A stretch of 64,000 bases of DNA, taken from Hymenobacter sp. CRA2. GTDB taxonomy: Bacteria; Bacteroidota; Bacteroidia; Cytophagales; Hymenobacteraceae. Under the pieces are notes generated by a model, which saw only the letters and a program-made list of their open reading frames with translations, ran no database searches and was not told the origin of the DNA. Below, one piece after another: positions 209 to 12,073 of this stretch (position 1 is its first letter; each line of letters opens with the position of its first letter). Where the stretch lies: the NCBI RefSeq assembly GCF_002007105.1, contig NZ_MVBC01000004.1, positions 62,001-126,000 on the forward strand, written 5' to 3'. The translations under genes and the position numbers were made by a program.

Positions 209-1216
209 TTAGGCCTGCACGCGGCGGTAAATGGCCTCCTGCTGGCTGAAGAACTGCGTGAGCGGCTCGTTGGGGTCGGGGCTGAGACGGGCCACGTCGA
301 TGGCGTCCTGCTGCAGGTGCGCCTGAATCACCGGGCCGAGCTCCTGCAGGAAGTCCATGTCTTCGCCATCGACGTTGAAGGCGAGTAGTAGGCGTGAAGG
401 AGCGTCTTCGCCTTCGATGACTACCCCGGCCAAGTAAGCAGCCTCGATGTGGGCGTGCTGGGCGCAGAAATCACGCAGGGCGGTCTGCAGTTCCTCCGGC
501 ACCTCCGCGAATGGCACCAGCTGGGCCTGCGGGCCTTGCTCAGCGCCTTCGGGTACGGAGAAGATGCGGCCCGACAGCAGATCAGCAATTTCCGGGGCTA
601 CCAGCAGCTTGCCGAACGGCGAGAAGGGGTTGAGCACGCACTCCGCGTCGTTGATCATGCGGAAGAAGCCTTCGCCCGGCACGCGCAGGAACGATACTTC
701 GCCCTGAATGGCACCGCCATCGTAGACGCGCGCTTCGGAGGAGAAAACCGGGATGCGGCCGTCGTGGAGCACGTGCAGCTGCACCTCGGTGCCCTCGGTC
801 ACGGTCACTTCGCCGGGTTCGGCACCTTCCGGGGCATTGGTCAGCACGATGAGTTCGGCGTGCAGCAGCTCGTGGTAGAAGGCGAGGCGGTACTGCGGGT
901 CCTGCGCGGCCATCAGCAGCGCATTTTCCAGGTTGTTGCTGGGCTCGAAGGGCAACGGCATCGGCTCCGGTTCCGACATGGGCGGAATCATGGGCGCCGG
1001 CGTGTGTTCGAAGCTGGGCTGCATCTCAGCCGCGCTCTTGGCCGCGAAGGCCGGGCGCTGGTAACGCGGGCCGCCGGCCGCCGGCTTGGGCGCTTCGGGT
1101 TGGGCGCTTTCGGTAGGAGCGGCGGGCGAAGCCGGTGTAGCAGGTTGCGAATTGGCAGGCGGCGTAGCGGCGGGCTCGTCGCCGGGTTTTTTCTTTAGAA
1201 AGTCGAACAGACCCAT
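209..1216 (-). CDS. SseB-family protein with Pro/Ala-rich N-terminal linker
   Basis: 335 residues. The protein starts MGLFDFLKKKPGDE, then has about 75 residues rich in Pro, Ala, Glu and Gln that look disordered. Two globular parts follow. Residues ~95-205 resemble the SseB N-terminal domain (start ENALLMAAQDPQYRLAFYHE, later FRMINDAECVLNPFSPFGK). The remainder resembles the SseB C-terminal domain (EVPEELQTALRDFCAQH). SseB of E. coli is linked to serine sensitivity, but its biochemical role is poorly defined and no catalytic motif is visible here. It ends close to the hairpin at 147-185. No signal peptide is seen, so it is probably cytoplasmic. The family assignment rests on the pattern of the two domains. 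Confidence 0.7.
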   Translation of the reverse strand: MGLFDFLKKKPGDEPAATPPANSQPATPASPAAPTESAQPEAPKPAAGGPRYQRPAFAAKSAAEMQPSFEHTPAPMIPPMSEPEPMPLPFEPSNNLENALLMAAQDPQYRLAFYHELLHAELIVLTNAPEGAEPGEVTVTEGTEVQLHVLHDGRIPVFSSEARVYDGGAIQGEVSFLRVPGEGFFRMINDAECVLNPFSPFGKLLVAPEIADLLSGRIFSVPEGAEQGPQAQLVPFAEVPEELQTALRDFCAQHAHIEAAYLAGVVIEGEDAPSRLLLAFNVDGEDMDFLQELGPVIQAHLQQDAIDVARLSPDPNEPLTQFFSQQEAIYRRVQA

Positions 1217-1325
1217 GATGCGGTAATCGAATGAAGATGCAAACTAATCAGGATTGGGCGAACAACCAGCCGATGAGCTGGCAAACCCAGCGGCAAGCTG
1301 CTCCAGGGCGTGAAAGAGCCCGGGT

Positions 1326-1769
1326 TTAGCGTCCGTCGGAGCCGTTGCACGGGCCCAGCAGCTCGCTGACTTCCCGGATGGTGTGCTTGGCGCCGCGGTT
1401 GCCCCAAGCCGTGTGCAAGTAATTGAGCAGGTTGGTAATCTGCGAGTCGGTGAGGTCTTCGTGGCCGGGCATCACCTGGTTGTAGCCCACGCCATTGACC
1501 ACGATGGGCCCCTGCTGCCCGCGGCGGATCAGGCAGGGCAGCTGGTTGCGGTGCTTGGCGAGGTAATCCGAGCCGGCCACCGGCGGTATCAGGCGCTTCA
1601 GCCCCTGGCCCTGCTCGCCGTGGCAGCTGGCGCAGTGCGTAGCGTACAGGCGCTGCCCCTCGTTCTGGCGGTCGGTGAAGCAGGCCGGCAAGGCCAGCGT
1701 CACGGCGGCCAGCGCGGCAACCGGGCGCAGCAATGCGGTGGTAGGGCGGAGCGAAAGGCGGAAGGGCAT
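1326..1769 (-). CDS. Lipoprotein cytochrome c, class I
   Basis: About 147 residues. The N-terminal hydrophobic stretch ends in LALPAC, a lipobox, so the protein is probably anchored in a membrane facing the periplasm. The haem-binding motif is CASCH, and a Met in VMPGHEDL is a plausible sixth ligand, followed by the helix LTDSQITNLLNYLHTAWGN typical of class I cytochromes c. It probably shuttles electrons. It is the last gene of a leftward cluster behind a SCO1 protein, which suggests a link to respiratory oxidase assembly or copper handling. I chose the ATG at 1769; a GTG lies two codons upstream. Confidence 0.85.
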   Translation of the reverse strand: MPFRLSLRPTTALLRPVAALAAVTLALPACFTDRQNEGQRLYATHCASCHGEQGQGLKRLIPPVAGSDYLAKHRNQLPCLIRRGQQGPIVVNGVGYNQVMPGHEDLTDSQITNLLNYLHTAWGNRGAKHTIREVSELLGPCNGSDGR

Positions 1770-1835
1770 AGGCACGTGGGAGGTCAGCCCCCAGACGGCG
1801 GCGTTGCAGTAGCCGGCCGGGGGCGAGCCGGCGGA

Positions 1836-2513
1836 TTACTTGGCGGCGGTGGCTTTGGCCGGGGCTACTTCCTCGAGCAGGCGCGGCAGATCCTGCAGCA
1901 GGCGGTCCACTTCCTGCGCGTTTACGCCGTCGTACATCCCCCGGATGTGGCGCTGCGGGTCCACCAGCACGAAGGCACCGCTGTGCACCGCGCCGCCGGG
2001 CGCCGAGGCATCGCGCTGGGCCGCTACCATGTACTGGCCGGCCAGGCGGAAAATGGTGTCGCGCGGGGCGGTGGCGAAGTGCCACTGCTGGGCCGTGGGC
2101 ACCCCGAGGCGCTGGGCGTAGTCGCGCAGCACGGGCAGCGTGTCGTGCTCCGGGTCGATGGTGTGCGAAAGGAAGGCTACGCGCGGGTCATTCTTGTATT
2201 TCTCGTACACGCGCAGCATCTGGCTCTGCATCTTGGGGCAGATGCTGGGGCAGGTGGCGAAAAAGAAGTCGGCGATGTACACCTTGCCGGCAAACGTAGC
2301 CGGCGTAACGGTGACGCTGTCCTGATCAAGCAGGGTGAAGGCCGGCACCTTGGGGTACACCGTGTCGCCGGGAGCCAGCACTTCCGGCTCGCCCAGGATG
2401 GGCAGGCGGGCCGCCTGAGCGGGTTTGTCGGCGTTGAGCTGGCAGGCGGGCAGCAACATGGCAGCCAGGGCCACGCCCAGCAGGGGGCGTAGAAGCGAGA
2501 ATCGAAGCATCAT
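1836..2513 (-). CDS. SCO1/SenC family copper chaperone / thiol-disulfide protein
   Basis: 225 residues with a lipoprotein-type N-terminus (lipobox-like MLLPAC). The thioredoxin-like domain carries CPSICPKM, the CxxxC copper/redox motif of SCO proteins, and the distal His in FLSHTIDPEHD. SCO proteins deliver copper to, or reduce the CuA site of, cytochrome c oxidase subunit II in the periplasm. The first ATG overlaps the stop codon of the upstream lipoprotein gene by one base (TGATG), so the two are probably translationally coupled. The cytochrome c gene lies 66 bp downstream on the same strand. A second ATG follows the first directly. Confidence 0.92.
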   Translation of the reverse strand: MMLRFSLLRPLLGVALAAMLLPACQLNADKPAQAARLPILGEPEVLAPGDTVYPKVPAFTLLDQDSVTVTPATFAGKVYIADFFFATCPSICPKMQSQMLRVYEKYKNDPRVAFLSHTIDPEHDTLPVLRDYAQRLGVPTAQQWHFATAPRDTIFRLAGQYMVAAQRDASAPGGAVHSGAFVLVDPQRHIRGMYDGVNAQEVDRLLQDLPRLLEEVAPAKATAAK

Positions 2514-2935
2514 CAGTGGGTGGGGCCGGTGGCACGAAGCACCACGCGGGCCGAGTCAATACTCTGTTGCATCAGAACACCCACCGAGTCGATTCGGTGC
2601 TGCTGCGCGGCCAGATAAGCCATGGCCCGCTCGTGGCGCGTCGTGTCGGCGGGGCGGTGGTACTGGTGCATCCACTGCATCATGCCTGCGTCGGCCGCCT
2701 GCAGCGCCTGTCGCCGGCGCCCGGCCAGCACGGTATCGGGTACCTTGGTTAGTTGCTGGCGCAGCTGGTAAAGCTCGTCCATGCGGGCCATCAGCTCGTC
2801 GTGGCGGGCCATAAGTTTCTGCTCGGCAAAGGCGCGCTTTTCTTCGTCGCTTTGCAGCTGCAGGCAGCCCGCTACAAGCAGGCCCAGCAGCGGCAAGGCC
2901 TGCCGCCAGCCCAAGGTACGTTGGTGGGTATTCAC
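2513..2935 (-). CDS. Small lipoprotein of the SCO1/cytochrome c cluster, unknown function
   Basis: 140 residues beginning with GTG. The hydrophobic N-terminus ends in LLVAGC, a lipobox. The rest is highly charged and predicted helical, with repeated short acidic-basic stretches (HDELMARMDELYQLRQQL) suggesting a coiled coil. I do not recognise a family. It is the first gene of the operon with SCO1 and cytochrome c, overlapping SCO1 by one base. Bacteroidota respiratory clusters often contain small uncharacterised lipoproteins of this kind, so a role near cytochrome oxidase is inference from context only. Confidence 0.7.
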   Translation of the reverse strand: MNTHQRTLGWRQALPLLGLLVAGCLQLQSDEEKRAFAEQKLMARHDELMARMDELYQLRQQLTKVPDTVLAGRRRQALQAADAGMMQWMHQYHRPADTTRHERAMAYLAAQQHRIDSVGVLMQQSIDSARVVLRATGPTH

Positions 2936-3014
2936 GGCCGCAAAGGTAGCCCACCGCGACGGATGTTAGCCCGCCCAGTAATGATTTACCCCGTGTGCCG
3001 CGCAGGGCGCAGGT

Positions 3015-4757
<1,743 letters not shown>

Positions 4758-4794
4758 CCCCGTGCACGATCAGCCAGCAGCGACGGCACGGGCT

Positions 4795-4947
4795 GTCATT
4801 GCGAGCAACGCTACATCTGGTAGAATCTAGAAAACGACCCCGCCCGAAACTGGTAATGCTAGTTTCGGGCGGGGTCGTTTTTGGTCAGTAGGTATTGCGT
4901 CGGCAGTGCTGCTAGAGGAAGGATTGCTTCGCTCTGCTCGCAATGAC
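4795..4947. repeat. 153-bp element with 13-bp terminal inverted repeats and internal terminator
   Basis: Perfect terminal inverted repeats GTCATTGCGAGCA (4795-4807) and TGCTCGCAATGAC (4935-4947) enclose a 21-bp hairpin. A related element lies at 52681-52865, with the same ends (GTCATTGCGA...TCGCAATGAC), the same GATTGCTTCGC next to the right end and a CCGCCCGAA...TTCGGGCGG hairpin. It has no coding content. It looks like a dispersed, non-autonomous repeat used as a transcription end point. Confidence 0.7.
4831..4883. terminator. Strong bidirectional terminator after the aldo/keto reductase
   Basis: A 21-bp perfect stem (4831-4851 with 4861-4881) with a 9-nt loop. An A-run leads and a T-run trails, so it can act on both strands. 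It separates the rightward aldo/keto reductase from the leftward DAC-like gene. Confidence 0.85.
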
Positions 4948-5010
4948 TGCCGGTGCTGCCGCTGATTGCGGCAGCACCAGATACTCTCAACAGGCATTTA
5001 CGGGTCGTTA

Positions 5011-6462
5011 CTACTTCTTCGAGGGAAGCAGGTCAATCCAGCCGTCTTCGCTCACTACCACGGCCAGCGTGGCGTAGCGGGCCGATTCCACGTAGCGCAA
5101 GGCCGAGTTGTAGCGCGAGCCGCGCGAGGAGTCGCCCTTTTCCGTGGCCAGGCCGTCCAGAATGGCCCCAATGGCGAAGCAGGTGCCGCGCGGGTCGATG
5201 AGTACAGCCCCGTCGATGTTGGTGACGAGGCGCAGCACGGAGGGCGTCATGAAGCGCGGCGCCACCCGGAAGCTTTGGCGCGTGAGGCGCTGGGCTTCCA
5301 GGCCGGCGTTGTCGGAAACCACCAGAATGGTGCCGTGCGACTGGGTGGTGGCCTGCAACGTCAGCTCCCACAGGTTCGTGACGGCGTTGTCGTCCAGGGC
5401 GGGCCAGAGGCGGCGGATGGTGTCGGCAAAGGTCTGCTCGTTGATGCGGCTTTTCGGCAGCCGCGGCGTGCCCGATACCACGCGCATCATCACGTGGTCG
5501 GCGTAGCTCAGTTCCCAGTTGTGGTGGGTGGTAAAGCGCACCTGAAACAGCGGCTCGTACAGGGCATCGGAGGGCTCCACCAGGTAGCCGAGGCCGAATA
5601 CGTGGGCCGCGTCGGACACCAGTGCCGTGCGACCTTCGCTCATCTCCAGGAGCTTGCGGATGGAACGATGGTCGCGCAGGGGCACCGGCATTTCCAGCGT
5701 CAGCACCGGCACCACGGCTGGGTGGTTGCGCCGCGCGATGAGCATGGTGCCGTGCACTTCCTGGCCTTCGTGGCGCAGGGCGGCCACGCCGTTGCAGGCG
5801 TCGTAAAGGCCGTGGTTGCCGCCCGCGGGGCCCTGCATAAAGCGCCGGCCCGCCGCGCGCAGCAGCTCGTTGTAGTCGCGGTCGAGGATGGGGCGGTCTT
5901 CCTCCTGGTCGAGGTCGGAGCCGCGCAGGGCCTTGCTGCACTCCAGCAGGAACTCGCGCACCACCGCGTGCAGCAAGGATTGCGCCCGGGACTCGTGGCT
6001 GACCTCGCCCGGCAGGCGGTAATACGTTTTGAGCGCCTCCGTAGAGAGCTGCAGCACGGACATGATGAGGTAGCCGTTGATGAGCACCGGCAGCGAGCAG
6101 AACACGCGTTTGCCGTCTTCCTCGGCCAGCGGAGCCAACTCCAGTTCGATGGCGCGGCGCAGCATGCTGTACCAGCGCAGCTTCTCGAAACGGTCCTGGT
6201 CGTCGTGCTGCAGGTGATACACCAGCTCCCGGGCACCGTCGAGCTCCAGGGCGGCGGCGCGTTCCTTCACCCGGGCGAAGTGCTCGGGCTGGTAGCGGTG
6301 GGTGGGCGGCTCCACACGCACTGCCCCGGGCACATCGGTTTCGCGCGCCGCCGCCATCCCGACGAGCAGCACTTCCGGGCGCAGGTTGCGGTCTAGCAGA
6401 TTAAAAACTCCCTCGGCGAACAGTTGAGCCGAGACCCGGAACAAACTTTGGTATTCCCACAT
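5011..6462 (-). CDS. Putative sensor protein with a degenerate DisA_N/DAC-type domain
   Basis: 483 residues from the ATG at 6462 (the frame opens further upstream but without a good start). The last ~150 residues follow the diadenylate-cyclase pattern: a beta strand HGTILVVSD, then TNIDGAVLID with the DGA motif at about 417-419, then GSRYNSALRYVES where active enzymes have RHR, then VVVSEDGWIDLL, which matches the VVSEE strand. The RHR triad reads R-Y-N (about 450-452), so the catalytic motif is incomplete. The N-terminal ~270 residues are helical and unassigned; the middle (~255-345) is beta-rich. The nearest named family I recall is 'putative sensor domain DACNV'. It may bind a nucleotide rather than make one. 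It stands alone between two terminator-like regions. A second such protein lies at 42196-43329. Confidence 0.7.
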   Translation of the reverse strand: MWEYQSLFRVSAQLFAEGVFNLLDRNLRPEVLLVGMAAARETDVPGAVRVEPPTHRYQPEHFARVKERAAALELDGARELVYHLQHDDQDRFEKLRWYSMLRRAIELELAPLAEEDGKRVFCSLPVLINGYLIMSVLQLSTEALKTYYRLPGEVSHESRAQSLLHAVVREFLLECSKALRGSDLDQEEDRPILDRDYNELLRAAGRRFMQGPAGGNHGLYDACNGVAALRHEGQEVHGTMLIARRNHPAVVPVLTLEMPVPLRDHRSIRKLLEMSEGRTALVSDAAHVFGLGYLVEPSDALYEPLFQVRFTTHHNWELSYADHVMMRVVSGTPRLPKSRINEQTFADTIRRLWPALDDNAVTNLWELTLQATTQSHGTILVVSDNAGLEAQRLTRQSFRVAPRFMTPSVLRLVTNIDGAVLIDPRGTCFAIGAILDGLATEKGDSSRGSRYNSALRYVESARYATLAVVVSEDGWIDLLPSKK

Positions 6463-6692
6463 GCGGCGCAAAACAAGCCTGCCGGCCGCGGTGGACCGCC
6501 GGCAATGGCCTAGCTTACGGGAAAGGTACTTCAGAAGGTGCGTGCCCGCGCCAAGGCGCCGACTGGGCCCCAACTTTTCTCCCCGGCATGAGTTGTCAGG
6601 AAAGCGACGCAGGGCAAGTACTGGTTGCGTAGTGGGTTCGTTTCCCGTAACTTAGAAGAGCAGGTCTGCCCGTTGTTGTCACGCCGCCGAGT

Positions 6693-6947
6693 ATGTTGGT
6701 TGATTTACTGTTTGGAGCGTTGTGTGGAATACTGTGGCTGCCGCTGGTCACGGGCTACTGCGCTTATAGCCACGAACGGTCGTTCTGGCTTTGGTTTGGG
6801 CTGGGGTTCCTGCTGCCAGGCGTATCCTTTGTGGTACTGCTGGTGCTGCTGTGGCGCGAGCAGCGCAGCCCGGGCTACCGGTTGCTACGCGAAGCCAAAC
6901 GCATTCTGGCCGAGGCCGAAGCGCACGAGGTGGAGCCGTACGAGTAA
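6693..6947 (+). CDS. Small membrane protein, two transmembrane segments
   Basis: 84 residues: two hydrophobic segments (LLFGALCGILWLPLVTGYCAY and FWLWFGLGFLLPGVSFVVLL) joined by a short polar turn, then a charged C-terminal tail with an Arg/Glu-rich helix (LLREAKRILAEAEAHE). No family recognised. It stands alone, convergent with the flavoprotein gene whose stop lies 36 bp downstream. Confidence 0.6.
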   Translation: MLVDLLFGALCGILWLPLVTGYCAYSHERSFWLWFGLGFLLPGVSFVVLLVLLWREQRSPGYRLLREAKRILAEAEAHEVEPYE

Positions 6948-6983
6948 TAACCACTGCGGGCTAGGCTCACAAGCTGGGCGCGC

Positions 6984-8207
6984 CTAGCCTTGCAGCCACT
7001 GCCGAATGCCCAGCGCGGCCCAGGCCCCCGTGCTAAAGCAGCCCTGCAGCAGGTAACCACCCGTGGGGGCCTCCCAGTCCAGCATTTCGCCCGCCACGAA
7101 GGTGCCGGGGCGGCTGCGCAGCATCAGGTGGCCATCCACCGCTGCGAAGGGCACCCCCCCGGCCGTACTGATGGCCTCGTCCAAGGGGCGCAAGCCGGTT
7201 AAGAGCAGGGGCACGGCCTGCAGCAAAGCAGCGAGTTGCGCCGGCTCGGTTGGCACGGCGGGTACGGCCTCGCGCAGCAGCGTGGGCACGGGCGGGCCCA
7301 GGCGCAGCGTTTGCCGCAGCACTTCTGCCCCCGACAAGCCCCGCCGGGCCTGTTGCAGACGTTTTGCCACGGCCTCCACCGGCAGCTCGGGTTTGAGGTT
7401 GAGCAGCAGTTGGGCCGGGGCGCCAGCCGCCAGTGCCTCGCGGATGGCCGGGGTCAGCGCGTACACCGGCGTGCCTTCCAGGCCGTATTCCGTCAGCATG
7501 ACTTCGCCTCGGGCGGTGGCGCTGCCGCAACTCAGGGCCACGTTCTTAAGCGGGCTGCGGCCTACTTTTGCCCGAAAAAAATCCGACCACGGCACTTCCA
7601 CCCCGCAGTTGCTCGGCGCGAAAGGCGTCAGGGCCATGCCCGTGTGCGCGGCTAACGATTGGCTCCACGCACCGTCGGAACCCGTCTTGGCCCAGCTCGC
7701 GCCGCCGAGGGCCAGCAGCGTGGCCCGCGGCTCGATGGTAAACTCAGTGGACTGCTGCTCGTCGCGCAGCCGCAGACCCGTGGCGCCGTCGAAGCCCAGC
7801 CAGCGGTGCCGGGTGTGGAGGCGCACGCCGAGGTCGGCGAGGCGCTGCAGCCACGCACGGAGCAGGTGCGCGGGCTTGTGCTCGGGCGCCGGAAACACGC
7901 GGCCGCTGCTGCCCACGTAGGTGCTGATGCCCAAATCGGTGGCCCAGCGGCGCAGCTCTTCGGGACCGAAGTGGGCGAGGAATTGCTCGAAGACCGGTTG
8001 CTGCGCGCCGTAGCGGGGGCCGAAGGCGGCGGTCGGTTCGCCGTTGGTCAGGTTGAAGCCGCCGTGCCCGGCCACCAAAAACTTGCGGCCGGGCGTGGCC
8101 TGAGCCTCAAACACGGCCACCCCGGGCACGCCGGCTTCGGCCAAATGCTGGGCCGCCAGCAGGCCCGCGGGCCCCCCGCCGATGATGGCTACGGTCGGAT
8201 TCTGCAT
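6984..8207 (-). CDS. HI0933/BaiN-type FAD-dependent flavoprotein
   Basis: 407 residues from the ATG at 8207, chosen because the Rossmann FAD-binding motif VAIIGGGPAGLLAAQ starts five residues later. The pattern fits the HI0933-like (TIGR03862/BaiN) family of NAD(P)/FAD-dependent oxidoreductases: GRKFLVAGHGGFNLTN near residue 50, a long insertion domain, and the C-terminal GGVPFAAVDGHLMLRSRPGTFVAGEMLDWEAPTGGY-type FAD-binding end that closes the fold. The physiological substrate is unknown for most members. It is divergent from the antiporter gene at 8306, with about 100 bp between the starts. Confidence 0.9.
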   Translation of the reverse strand: MQNPTVAIIGGGPAGLLAAQHLAEAGVPGVAVFEAQATPGRKFLVAGHGGFNLTNGEPTAAFGPRYGAQQPVFEQFLAHFGPEELRRWATDLGISTYVGSSGRVFPAPEHKPAHLLRAWLQRLADLGVRLHTRHRWLGFDGATGLRLRDEQQSTEFTIEPRATLLALGGASWAKTGSDGAWSQSLAAHTGMALTPFAPSNCGVEVPWSDFFRAKVGRSPLKNVALSCGSATARGEVMLTEYGLEGTPVYALTPAIREALAAGAPAQLLLNLKPELPVEAVAKRLQQARRGLSGAEVLRQTLRLGPPVPTLLREAVPAVPTEPAQLAALLQAVPLLLTGLRPLDEAISTAGGVPFAAVDGHLMLRSRPGTFVAGEMLDWEAPTGGYLLQGCFSTGAWAALGIRQWLQG

Positions 8208-8305
8208 GCAGGAAAGGAAAAAAGCCGGGCTTGGCCGCTCGCAAAAGTAACGCCCGCCCGGCACCGCTCGACAGCGTTTTGCCGGGAAGTTCGTAGCATC
8301 GGGGC

Positions 8306-9505
8306 ATGGGACCCTACTCCATCCTGATTTACCTCAGCATTGCCGTCATCCTGTCGTACCTGTTCGACATTGCCGCTCGGGCCACCAAAATCCCCTCGGT
8401 GCTCATGCTGTTGCTCACCGGCATTGCCCTCAAGCAAGCCGTCGATTACACGGGTGCCCAGGTCGCCCTGCCCGCCGTCACGCTCCAGTTGCTCGGCATC
8501 GTCGGGCTGATCATGATAGTGCTCGATGAGTCCCTGAACCTGAAAATCAGCCCCGATAAGGGGCCGTTGATCCGGCGGGCATTTGTCGCGGCGGCCGTTA
8601 TGTTGCTGGGGCAGGCTTTTGCCATTGGCGGGCTGTTGCAGTGGTACCTGGGGCCGAACGTGCCGTTTCAGAGCTGCCTGCTCAACGCGGTGCCGCTGGC
8701 CGTCATCAGCTCGGCCGTGGCTATTCCGAGCGTGGCTGGCCTAGGGGGCGAGAAGCAGGAGTTCATCGTGTACGAAAGCACGTTTTCGGACATTCTGGGC
8801 ATCATGCTCTTCAACTTCGTGGCCCAGGACAACTTCGCGCAGGGCATTTCGGCTCTCACCTTTACCCGCGACCTGCTGGCCATCCTGGTCGTATCGGCCC
8901 TGGCCACGGCCATCCTGGCCTTTCTGCTCCACCGCATCCGGCTGCACGTGAAGTTCTTCTTAGTGCTGGCCTTTCTGGTGCTGATTTATTCGCTGGCCAA
9001 AAAGCTGCACCTGTCCTCGCTGCTGGTGGTACTGGTGTTCGGGCTGGTGCTCAAAAACGCCGACCTGTTCCTGCGCGGGCCGCTACGGCGCTGGTTTCAG
9101 CTGGAGCGTCTGCAGGACGAACTGCGGCAGCTGCAGAGCATTACCGCTGAGTCGGCCTTTCTTATCCGCACGTTCTTCTTCCTACTCTTCGGCTTTTCCA
9201 TTTCCCTTAGCAGCATTCTCGATGCGCGCCTGCTGCTGCAGGGCCTGCTCATCGTGGGCGTGCTCACCTTGCTGCGCTACTTGTACCTGCGCTACGTGGC
9301 CCGCACCAGCCTCATTCCGGAGGTATTCATCGCCCCCAAAGGTTTGATTACGGTGCTGCTATTCTACAGCATTCCGCAGAAGCAGCTTATCGGTGAAGTC
9401 AGCGAAAACATCCTGTTCGTGGTCATCCTGCTCACGGGCGTGCTCATGCTTATCGGGCTGCAGCTGCCCAGCCGGGAAGCCCCGCCGGAACTTAATGAGT
9501 ACTGA
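8306..9505 (+). CDS. Sodium/hydrogen exchanger family protein (cation:proton antiporter)
   Basis: 399 residues with about 11-12 hydrophobic helices. The start ILIYLSIAVILSYLFDIAARATKIPSVLMLLLTGIAL matches the N-terminal helices of the Na+/H+ exchanger superfamily, where PSVLMLLLTGI corresponds to the conserved P(S/R)xxGxxxxG segment. Further in, LDESLNLK and SAVAIPSVAGLGGEKQEFIVYESTFSDI resemble the central ion-binding helices, with Glu and Asp at the transport site. The C-terminus is short, without a TrkA domain. It likely exchanges Na+ or K+ for protons at the inner membrane; the ion cannot be told from sequence. Confidence 0.85.
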   Translation: MGPYSILIYLSIAVILSYLFDIAARATKIPSVLMLLLTGIALKQAVDYTGAQVALPAVTLQLLGIVGLIMIVLDESLNLKISPDKGPLIRRAFVAAAVMLLGQAFAIGGLLQWYLGPNVPFQSCLLNAVPLAVISSAVAIPSVAGLGGEKQEFIVYESTFSDILGIMLFNFVAQDNFAQGISALTFTRDLLAILVVSALATAILAFLLHRIRLHVKFFLVLAFLVLIYSLAKKLHLSSLLVVLVFGLVLKNADLFLRGPLRRWFQLERLQDELRQLQSITAESAFLIRTFFFLLFGFSISLSSILDARLLLQGLLIVGVLTLLRYLYLRYVARTSLIPEVFIAPKGLITVLLFYSIPQKQLIGEVSENILFVVILLTGVLMLIGLQLPSREAPPELNEY

Positions 9506-9526
9506 GGCGCAACAAGCAGGGCAAAA

Positions 9527-9573
9527 ACACATGCCCCGCCCAGCCGCTGTAAGCGGCCGCGCGGGGCATGTGT
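9527..9573. terminator. Stem-loop between convergent antiporter and TetR genes
   Basis: ACACATGCCCCGC (9527-9539) pairs with GCGGGGCATGTGT (9561-9573), 13 bp, with a smaller CCGC/GCGG hairpin in the loop and an A-run on the left flank. It sits in the 97-bp gap between two convergent genes and can end both transcripts. Confidence 0.8.
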
Positions 9574-9602
9574 CTTGAGGTGAGCAGAAGCCAGATAGAT
9601 AC

Positions 9603-10139
9603 CTACTGCGGCTGGTACTTGCGTTTGATAAAATCAAGCATGTCGGGCACGTGCTCGTCGGTTTTGTTGGCTTCGATCTTCCACAGCGCTTCCACCAGCA
9701 GCAGCAGCAGGCTGGCTTCTTTGTCGGGTTCGTCGTAGCCCAACGCCTGAAAGGCTTTTTCCAGCAGGGCCGGCACCGGCTGCATAAACCGCTCGTGCTG
9801 TTGCCGCGCCGATTCCACGTTGGCCAGCCGGTACTGCAGCTTCCAGAAGTGGGGCTCGGCCTGTACCAGCTTCACTGGCAGGTCGATAACGGCGTGAATG
9901 AAGGTGAGCGGGTCCTGTTCGGAAAGCCACCCGCGGTTTTCCTCGATGATGCGCTTGTAGCCACTGCGGATAACAAAGTCCAGTAGTTGGTCTTTGGAGC
10001 CGAAGTGTTTGAAAATAAGAGCTTCCGAAACGCCGGCTGCCTTCGCAATTTGCTGCGTGGAGGCGTTTTCGAAGCCTTTTTCCCCAAAGAGCTGCAAGGC
10101 TACCTGAGCGATGTGCTGTTTGCGGTTGACTGTGGACAT
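9603..10139 (-). CDS. TetR/AcrR family transcriptional regulator
   Basis: 178 residues. The N-terminal helix-turn-helix is clear: IAQVALQLFGEKGFENASTQQIAKAAGVSEALIFKHFGSKDQLLDFVI, including the family hallmark KHFGSKDQL. The C-terminal ligand-binding domain is all-helical and not specific to a known inducer. TetR proteins usually repress a neighbouring transporter or their own gene, but no adjacent efflux gene is seen; the convergent antiporter at 8306 is only a weak candidate target. A 620-bp noncoding stretch lies upstream. Confidence 0.92.
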   Translation of the reverse strand: MSTVNRKQHIAQVALQLFGEKGFENASTQQIAKAAGVSEALIFKHFGSKDQLLDFVIRSGYKRIIEENRGWLSEQDPLTFIHAVIDLPVKLVQAEPHFWKLQYRLANVESARQQHERFMQPVPALLEKAFQALGYDEPDKEASLLLLLVEALWKIEANKTDEHVPDMLDFIKRKYQPQ

Positions 10140-10762
10140 GGAGCTGGATGTTCGGCTGAAAACCGACGCGCTAGGTTATTAGCGGCCAAAGATGGCTAAA
10201 ACGCTGCAAGTTCGCCGCAATTAGGATTAGTTGCGCGATTTTTTTAGCTCGCCAGCGGCTCCAGCACTTAGCGATACTTTGTAGATGCCGCGAGCGGACC
10301 ACGCGCGCCGCAACGAGTAGGCATAAAAAGCGGCCGGCCGACTCGGGGTTTCCGAATCGGCCGGCCTTGGGGTTCGATAGGTCAGCTCTGCCTAGGTTGG
10401 CGACTGATTCTCGATGGGTTCCGGATGGGGTGGGACAACATCCGGTAGAACAGAACGTGGTAGTAAGCTAACTAGCAACTAGTGGGAGTCATTGCCCGTT
10501 AGCGAGAGCAATATTACGCAAAGGTTTGCATACGATAGTAAGTGTTAGCTTACTTTTTTTTGTGAGTAGTCACTCACCTTTGGTTTGTAGGCTGTGTAAT
10601 GCATTGGGAGTAAGATTTATAAGCAGCTGAAAAATTTTTCATAGTTGCGCAATAAATTCAAGGTCGAGAATACTGTATGAAGCAACTCAATAGAGCTGGC
10701 GCCAAAAAAGCCCCAACGCATTGCGCCGGGGCTTAGGAAAAGCAAGGAAGCTTCGGGGTTAC
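10140..10762. other. Noncoding region between tetR and argH
   Basis: No believable coding frame. It holds a hairpin at 10332-10366 (15-bp stem with one G-T, 5-nt loop), an AT-rich stretch at about 10490-10690 that is unlike the surrounding GC-rich DNA, and the argH terminator at 10702-10734. The AT-rich part could contain the tetR promoter region or an RNA gene, but I find no clear TAnnTTTG element on the minus strand. Confidence 0.5.
10702..10734 (-). terminator. argH transcription terminator
   Basis: Arms 10708-10719 and 10723-10734 pair over 10 of 12 positions around a 3-nt loop. Read on the minus strand the hairpin is followed by a run of six T. It lies 29 bp beyond the argH stop, as expected for an intrinsic terminator of the leftward arginine operon. 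Confidence 0.8.
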
Positions 10763-12073
10763 TTAATTAGGCCGCTTGGTCAAGGAGCTGCGTGCGACCA
10801 GTTGGTCGCGCTTGGCACGGATTTCAGCCAGCCCCAGATTGTGGACGCTGCCCAAGTGCGTCGTCTGAAATTCGCGGTGGGGCTGGTAGCTGCCGTCCTC
10901 CACGGCGTGGCCTACCTGCTTATAAGCCTCCCGAAATGGCGTGTCGCTTTGAATCAGCTGGTTGATGTTTTCGACGGTGAAAATAGCGTCGTACTTGGCC
11001 TGCTCCACCAGGTTCGGCTTGATCTTCAGCTCGGGCAGGGCAAAGAGTACAATATCGAGGATGTCCAGAAACTGCGTGAGCGGCTCGAAGAGCAGTTCCT
11101 TCAGAATCTGGAAGTCGCGATGGTAACCGCTGGGCAGGTTGTTGGTCGCCAGAATGATGGTATTGGGTACGCCCTGCAGCGCGTTGCAGCGGGCCCGGAT
11201 CAGCTCAAACACGTCCGGATTTTTCTTGTGCGGCATGATGCTGCTGCCCGTGGTAAAGGCCGCCGGCAACTCCACGAAGGCCAAGTCCTGAGAGTTGTAA
11301 AGCACCAGGTCATAGGCCATTTTCGAGAGGGTAGCTGCGGCGCCCGCCAGGGCAAAAGCCACCGTTTTCTCGGTCTTGCCGCGCAGCATCTGGGCGCCCA
11401 CGCTGCTCACCGCCAGGCTGCCGAAGCCAATTTCCTGGGTGGTCTGTTGCCGGTCGATGGGAAAGGAGGAGCCGAAGCCGGCACCCGAGCCCAGCGGGTT
11501 TTGGTCGGCCACGGTGTGAGCCGCCTCGAACAGAGCTAGATCCAGCAACAGGTGCTCGGCGTAAGCCGAAAACCACAGCCCGAAGGAGCTGGGCATGGCC
11601 GCCTGAAAGTGCGTGTAGCCCGGCATCAGGTCCGTCTGGTGCTGCTCGGCTTTCTGCAGCAGCACCTCCACGAGTTGCAGCATTTTGGCCGCGGCGCGCT
11701 CGGTGTAGTCCTTCAGAAACAGCTGAATGGCCGTCAGCACCTGGTCGTTGCGCGAGCGGGCGGTATGAATCTTCTTGCCCGCGTCGCCGAACCGCTCGGT
11801 GAGGTAGTACTCGATCTTGGAGTGCACGTCCTCGAAGCTCTCGTCGATGGTGAACGTGCCCTGCTCGATGTCGACGGCCAGTTCCGCCAGACCCTGCTGC
11901 AACTGCTCGTTTTCGGCGGCCGAAATCAGGCCCACCCGCGCCAGCATGCTGGCCTGCGCCTTCGAGGCCTGCACATCGAACTGCGCCAGGTACATATCCA
12001 GCTCCCGGTCGCGGCCGACGGTGAACTGCTCAATCTTCTTATCGACGGCAATGCCTTTGTCCCAGATTTTCAT
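10763..12073 (-). CDS. argH: Argininosuccinate lyase
   Basis: 436 residues. It cleaves argininosuccinate to arginine and fumarate, the last step of arginine synthesis. The fumarase/aspartase-superfamily signature GSSIMPHKKNPDVFELIRA is intact, as are HTARSRNDQV and the His of LMPGYTHFQAAMPSSFG. The N-terminus MKIWDKGI matches the short Bacteroidota form. It is the last gene of the leftward argB-deacylase-argH group (84 bp after the deacylase) and is followed by a good terminator. Confidence 0.97.
   Translation of the reverse strand: MKIWDKGIAVDKKIEQFTVGRDRELDMYLAQFDVQASKAQASMLARVGLISAAENEQLQQGLAELAVDIEQGTFTIDESFEDVHSKIEYYLTERFGDAGKKIHTARSRNDQVLTAIQLFLKDYTERAAAKMLQLVEVLLQKAEQHQTDLMPGYTHFQAAMPSSFGLWFSAYAEHLLLDLALFEAAHTVADQNPLGSGAGFGSSFPIDRQQTTQEIGFGSLAVSSVGAQMLRGKTEKTVAFALAGAAATLSKMAYDLVLYNSQDLAFVELPAAFTTGSSIMPHKKNPDVFELIRARCNALQGVPNTIILATNNLPSGYHRDFQILKELLFEPLTQFLDILDIVLFALPELKIKPNLVEQAKYDAIFTVENINQLIQSDTPFREAYKQVGHAVEDGSYQPHREFQTTHLGSVHNLGLAEIRAKRDQLVARSSLTKRPN

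Follow-up and report, generated by a model that had tools for sequence, protein, structure and literature searches.

An RYN-type diadenylate cyclase-like protein of Hymenobacter with an invariant and apparently rewired nucleotide pocket

The window analyzed here, a 64,000-nucleotide stretch of the Hymenobacter sp. CRA2 genome, carries on its minus strand a gene (5011..6462, ATG to stop) for a protein of 483 amino acids, P0001, in which the domains DACNG, DACNH and DAC follow one another in that order, all three above the Pfam cut-offs; the ORF list also holds a longer reading of this frame from a TTG start at 6573. DACNG occupies residues 1-209 (E 1.4e-69), and the DACNH match covers residues 217-321 (E 4.8e-32) within a domain that we take as 217-330 (5473..5814, minus strand) and that includes a pair invariant in DACNH, Arg269-Lys270 (5653..5658, minus strand). 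The C-terminal DAC domain, residues 342-483 (5014..5439), matches Pfam DAC (PF02457) over residues 372-475 (E 4.9e-10) and carries, likewise on the minus strand, DGA at residues 417-419 (5206..5214), ILDG at 434-437 (5152..5163), RGSRYN at 447-452 (5107..5124) and SED at 471-473 (5044..5052). RGSRYN places RYN at the RHR position and brings an extra invariant arginine, Arg447, while SED is the counterpart of SEE in CdaA, with Asp473 at the metal-binding Glu position, where the acid is thus retained as Asp and the Glu replaced. An AlphaFold2 model of the protein (pLDDT 88, pTM 0.84) has the DAC fold; the first 25 Foldseek matches listed for it were DAC proteins, as were the best 40 of the 50 VIA rows in a structure comparison. 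Profile alignment against 28 CdaA sequences set GLRHRAA opposite GSRYNSA with an hhalign probability of only 2.8% (E 0.016), a low value; the assignment of RYN to the RHR position is carried by the Pfam DAC match and the fold. The earlier note on this DNA had read the motif order of a diadenylate cyclase here, with DGA kept and RHR changed to RYN, and had proposed looking for the fold in a predicted structure; the Pfam match, the predicted fold and the motif positions bear this reading out. Set against the canonical cyclases, the protein therefore has the DAC fold and DGA and lacks RHR.

Beyond the DAC gene lie, on the plus strand, an 84-residue ORF (6693-6947) with only sub-cut-off Pfam matches and a counterpart in one of seven same-genus regions, and, past the HI0933-like gene that follows it, a Na+/H+ exchanger gene (8306-9502). 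The remark that no other c-di-AMP gene is nearby agrees with the annotated neighbors from 212 to 12073, among which the 84-residue ORF and a 140-residue ORF have no Pfam family above cut-off. The surroundings are largely kept in the window's genus and its sister genus, where other 18-kb regions include the HI0933-like gene (13/13), a DUF4112 gene (10/13), the exchanger (10/13) and an aldo/keto reductase gene (9/13). The DAC gene itself is present in all eight genomes of its genus (seven others and its own) and in 41/41 of the sister genus, and both genera carry a second paralogue at roughly 36-42% identity. Family-wide it was found in 126 of 200 genomes, in three of six genera; in a sample of the phylum DACNG occurs in 4/395 genomes, all from the window's family, and a scan of public genomes also turned up members here and there, for instance in Flavobacterium and Pedobacter. 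Compared with its three closest orthologues the gene has a dN/dS of 0.11-0.14, lowest in the DAC domain (0.04-0.07); seven more distant orthologue pairs have values of 0.21-0.45, and among these the DAC domain is not the lowest in every pair. A house role for the window gene would be the simpler reading, as a defense gene fixed in this way would be unusual.

The public-genome scan confirmed 411 relatives, and the best 80 of these, joined with members from neighboring genomes, plasmids and E. coli, formed a motif set of 116 distinct proteins that spans archaeal and cyanobacterial members; 115 were informative, the remaining one (L073) being a fragment of a split gene. The tree has 114 rows, with L073 and L125 excluded; both are family copies split into two adjacent ORFs that are either broken or mis-sequenced. 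At the RHR position the 115 proteins read RYN (98), RFN (13) or RLN (4), and none reads RHR. Identical in all 115 are D417, G418, G432, I434, L435, D436, G437, R447, G448, R450, N452, S471 and D473. Since the scan patterns include the RYN motif itself, we sorted the rows by source: 36 rows obtained by whole-protein similarity, with no motif pattern, read RYN (33), RFN (2) and RLN (1), and 69 scan rows that fit the ILDG pattern read RYN (55), RFN (11) and RLN (3). The DACNH model used alone recovered nine genes in 5/395 genomes of the phylum. Eight of these, which the set already contained, are pairs of copies in four genomes from the window's family and read R-Y/F-N; the ninth, from a genome without a DACNG match in the phylum sample, also reads RYN. 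RHR was found in all 30 CdaA loci (the best-scoring PF02457 matches, including that of the window's own genome); for 28 of these it holds by construction, as the selecting pattern requires RHR, and the other two have it as well. Those 28 CdaA proteins, from related genomes, carry Pro at the Asp436 position, Met, Leu or Phe at that of Arg447, and Glu at that of Asp473.

According to PMC7288161, the Asp of DGA contacts the ribose, metal is bound by the second Glu of SEE, and the contacts to the phosphates come from the first Arg, the His and the Ser. On these assignments the family has kept the ribose Asp, the first Arg, the Ser and the metal acid, has lost the His and second Arg of RHR, and has gained a new Arg and Asp. 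Going by the sequences, the change looks like a rewiring of the pocket, with loss of function a possible outcome. In M. tuberculosis DisA, replacement of RHR by AAA abolished both ATP binding and c-di-AMP synthesis (PMC3328451, available sections), so a pocket that lacks the His and second Arg may have weaker DAC activity or none; no product assay of an RYN protein was found in the parts of the literature consulted. The earlier note had, however, taken RYN as a change in this one protein that implied lost synthesis, and that part of its interpretation is not supported, whereas the fold, DGA and RYN were correctly recognized: R-Y/F/L-N is invariant among the members examined, and the same holds for the DG pair, the first Arg, the Ser and the acid of the metal site. 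The note's other suggestion, a domain with a different product, may still apply. Because this pocket is invariant in the 115 members, we propose that the RYN proteins are a distinct active-site class and not decayed c-di-AMP synthases, and such a pocket could possibly serve a nucleotide signal that has gone unrecognized. The window's own genome encodes a canonical CdaA with DGA and RHR, and its c-di-AMP supply therefore does not depend on the window gene.

DACNH has in the model a DAC-like fold that lacks DGA (R278-T279-A280 is found there) and the helix that follows RHR. On this model and on custom profile tests, we read DACNH as a putative degenerate second DAC copy in the same chain; hhalign gave that assignment no support, with a score of 17.09 (from another alignment) that 5 of 100 column shuffles exceeded, the maximum being 20.81. 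L073, L076 and L125 were omitted from this shuffle test and from the DACNH residue comparison. A more far-reaching reading, which we offer tentatively and consider doubtful, is that the DACNG-DACNH-DAC family is a single-chain pseudo-heterodimeric cyclase, in which a dead DACNH would face a live RYN DAC and the rewired phosphate loop would consist of Arg447 and possibly Arg269-Lys270 contributed by the dead half. With a single live site and such a loop, the product would not be symmetric 3',5'-c-di-AMP but another signal, such as a dinucleotide that is linear or mixed. One branch of the family would feed this signal into CBASS, and two copies would have been domesticated as core genes in the Hymenobacteraceae. 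Such dead and live halves in one cyclase would resemble the C1 and C2 halves of mammalian adenylyl cyclase. If DACNH is indeed a dead DAC half, the name "probable sensor" given by Pfam would have to change and a one-site mechanism becomes directly testable.

One branch of the family is linked to defense. The available sections of PMC13092281 describe DS-2 as a three-gene E. coli system of a phospholipase, a cGAS-like protein and a DAC, which possibly employs two different cyclases; mutation of two predicted catalytic residues of the DAC ended defense, and 15 of 30 DAC homologues adjoined a CBASS. In our set the E. coli DS2_3 protein (locus L039) reads RYN, scores 818.8 against the NF053872 cut-off of 630 and adjoins DS2_1 and DS2_2 genes, with all three families above their cut-offs; the NF053872 cut-off was also passed by the Citrobacter (803.8) and Gluconobacter (712.2) members, and 18/5426 E. 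coli genomes contain DNA with about 85% identity to the Citrobacter gene. At L039 (4069-13746) the DS-2 genes adjoin a second CBASS (phospholipase, DncV, E2/UBC and Cap3) followed by Cap15-receptor and mCpol genes, which places three nucleotide-signaling sets in a row. In Methylomonas (L060:7297-7980) a gene for a Cap15 cyclic-dinucleotide receptor lies just upstream of an RFN-type DAC, in a stretch without a CD-NTase match; this DAC-Cap15 pair is a hint. A C-terminal extension of about 80-110 residues is present in 80 of the 114 tree rows and absent from the window protein and the other Hymenobacteraceae rows.

For the window gene and its relatives in Hymenobacteraceae, searches for such partners returned nothing in the regions and genome covered. 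Neither the CD-NTase nor the patatin HMMs matched anything in twenty 18-kb regions, 16 around orthologues and 4 around paralogues, which include those of the window gene and its paralogue. The search of the own genome for a CD-NTase covered the SMODS Pfam model and the DS-2 cyclase. The SMODS model had no match there, and as it scores the E. coli DS-2 cyclase at 24.5, below its cut-off of 26.5, a cyclase of that kind could escape it; the DS-2 nucleotidyltransferase as query, in a search run without a positive control, likewise had no match. Among operon neighbors of members without a CD-NTase, 20 of the 169 script-called genes were looked up.

We consider it somewhat probable, at roughly 55%, that the window protein is a nucleotide cyclase or transferase with a remodeled phosphate loop, gated by DACNG. 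Working from the computed fold, motifs, invariance, neighborhood, selection and partner searches, we infer catalysis, substrate, product and input, as well as the pseudo-dimer role of DACNH considered above. DACNG would take in an input signal, DACNH would be a second, degenerate DAC-like unit of the polypeptide, and the C-terminal DAC domain would hold the working site, retaining Asp417-Gly418, Arg450, Ser471 and Asp473 for a metal-dependent attack of the 3'-OH on the alpha-phosphate. The phosphates would be bound differently: Tyr and Asn take the place of the His and second Arg of RHR, and Arg447 and Asp436 have been gained. On input the enzyme would make a nucleotide signal, probably an adenine dinucleotide, which need not be 3',5'-c-di-AMP. 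Members of the DS-2 branch act together with CBASS genes; in the window's lineage the gene and its sister copy became fixed in the chromosome. Given that no CBASS partner was found for the window gene in the searches above, its signal would most likely serve the cell's own physiology.

Three other explanations compete with this reading, and since they overlap with it, their probabilities need not sum to one. We think it somewhat unlikely that the protein is a non-catalytic nucleotide sensor, whose RYN pocket binds a nucleotide (ATP, c-di-AMP made by CdaA, or another) and signals by change of shape only. The lost His and second Arg would suit such a protein, as would the need for RHR in ATP binding by M. 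tuberculosis DisA (PMC3328451, available sections), the canonical CdaA in the genome and the Pfam naming of the domains ahead of DAC as probable sensors; against this, all 115 members keep both the Asp-Gly on the ribose side and the acid on the metal side, where one of the two would be expected to drift in a pure binder, and the predicted-catalytic mutants of DS-2 lose defense, though binding could account for that too (PMC13092281, available sections). A further ordinary c-di-AMP synthase, with RYN as good as RHR and extra c-di-AMP made under an input of its own, is unlikely in our view. Na+/H+ exchangers can be c-di-AMP targets, and the exchanger past the next gene, which recurs in 10/13 other regions from both genera, would offer a possible link to ion control; the fold and the conserved Asp, Arg, Ser and acid are also those of a synthase. 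CdaA is already in the genome, however, and RHR in all 30 CdaA loci versus R-Y/F/L-N in 115 family members means that the pocket is consistently different.

NCBIfam calls the family DS2_3_antiphage, but we believe it quite unlikely that the window protein acts in phage defense on its own. The NF053872 match is strong (E 2e-138), DS-2 defends in E. coli (PMC13092281, available sections), and a CD-NTase gene lies within the stretch read for at least 40 of 115 relatives, a lower bound in view of HMMs whose seeds were two E. coli proteins, of short contigs in some cases and of flanks of 1.5 kb for most Hymenobacteraceae rows. Yet the NF053872 scores of the window protein (462.3) and its paralogue (458.7) fall below the curated cut-off of 630, the protein has no PADLOC match (among the 48 script-called ORFs of the window, PADLOC matches at E up to 1e-5 were limited to a dCTPase and a GajB helicase, one each), the C-terminal extension of the DS-2 branch is missing, and no partner emerged from the SMODS, DS-2 nucleotidyltransferase and 18-kb region searches. 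Mobile defense genes would also not be expected to keep a stable neighborhood or to occur in all searched genomes of two genera, as this gene does.

The family was already known through its Pfam and NCBIfam names and through DS-2. As far as could be checked, the new findings are the unvarying RYN pocket, the resemblance of DACNH to a DAC and the domesticated two-copy state; the literature searched, to which an earlier survey of DAC architectures does not belong, held no fitting paper on DACNG, DACNH or DACNK, on Hymenobacter and c-di-AMP, on a tandem or pseudo-heterodimeric diadenylate cyclase, or on a probable sensor joined to a DAC domain. All searched genomes of two genera hold this gene as a solitary chromosomal form, accompanied by a single sister copy, and this offers an opportunity that defense operons do not, namely that deletion combined with metabolite profiling could expose the signal without CBASS toxicity.

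Comparison with known systems places the window protein among several relatives. Its own genome has at least four DAC-related genes, namely CdaA, the two RYN proteins and L003; the second RYN protein (L023/L173, contig C45) is 39% identical, has RYN and ILDG intact and lies in a partly conserved neighborhood of its own. L003 (contig C40, 210906-214022, outside the window) likewise sets a probable sensor domain ahead of a DAC-like region, but that domain is a different one, DACNV, and L003 keeps DGA and RHR, with SQD for SEE and a DAC match of 26.4 bits against a cut-off of 27 (27 bits, over the cut-off, in another search). The DS-2 DAC (NF053872) shares with the window protein the order DACNG-DACNH before the DAC-like region, RYN and ILDG, and the window protein is about 30% identical to the E. 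coli member over the whole length. The two differ in that the window gene is a chromosomal core gene, scoring below the curated cut-off and with no phospholipase or CD-NTase neighbor found, whose product lacks the extension of about 82 residues and has DGA and SED where the E. coli protein has DGT and SDD. With CdaA and DisA (PF02457) the window protein shares the DAC fold, DGA, the first Arg of RHR, the Ser and an acidic residue at the metal site. Its differences from them are that RHR has become RYN, that Asp stands in place of the second Glu of SEE, that Arg447 and Asp436 are invariant, and that DACNG and the DAC-like DACNH precede its DAC domain.
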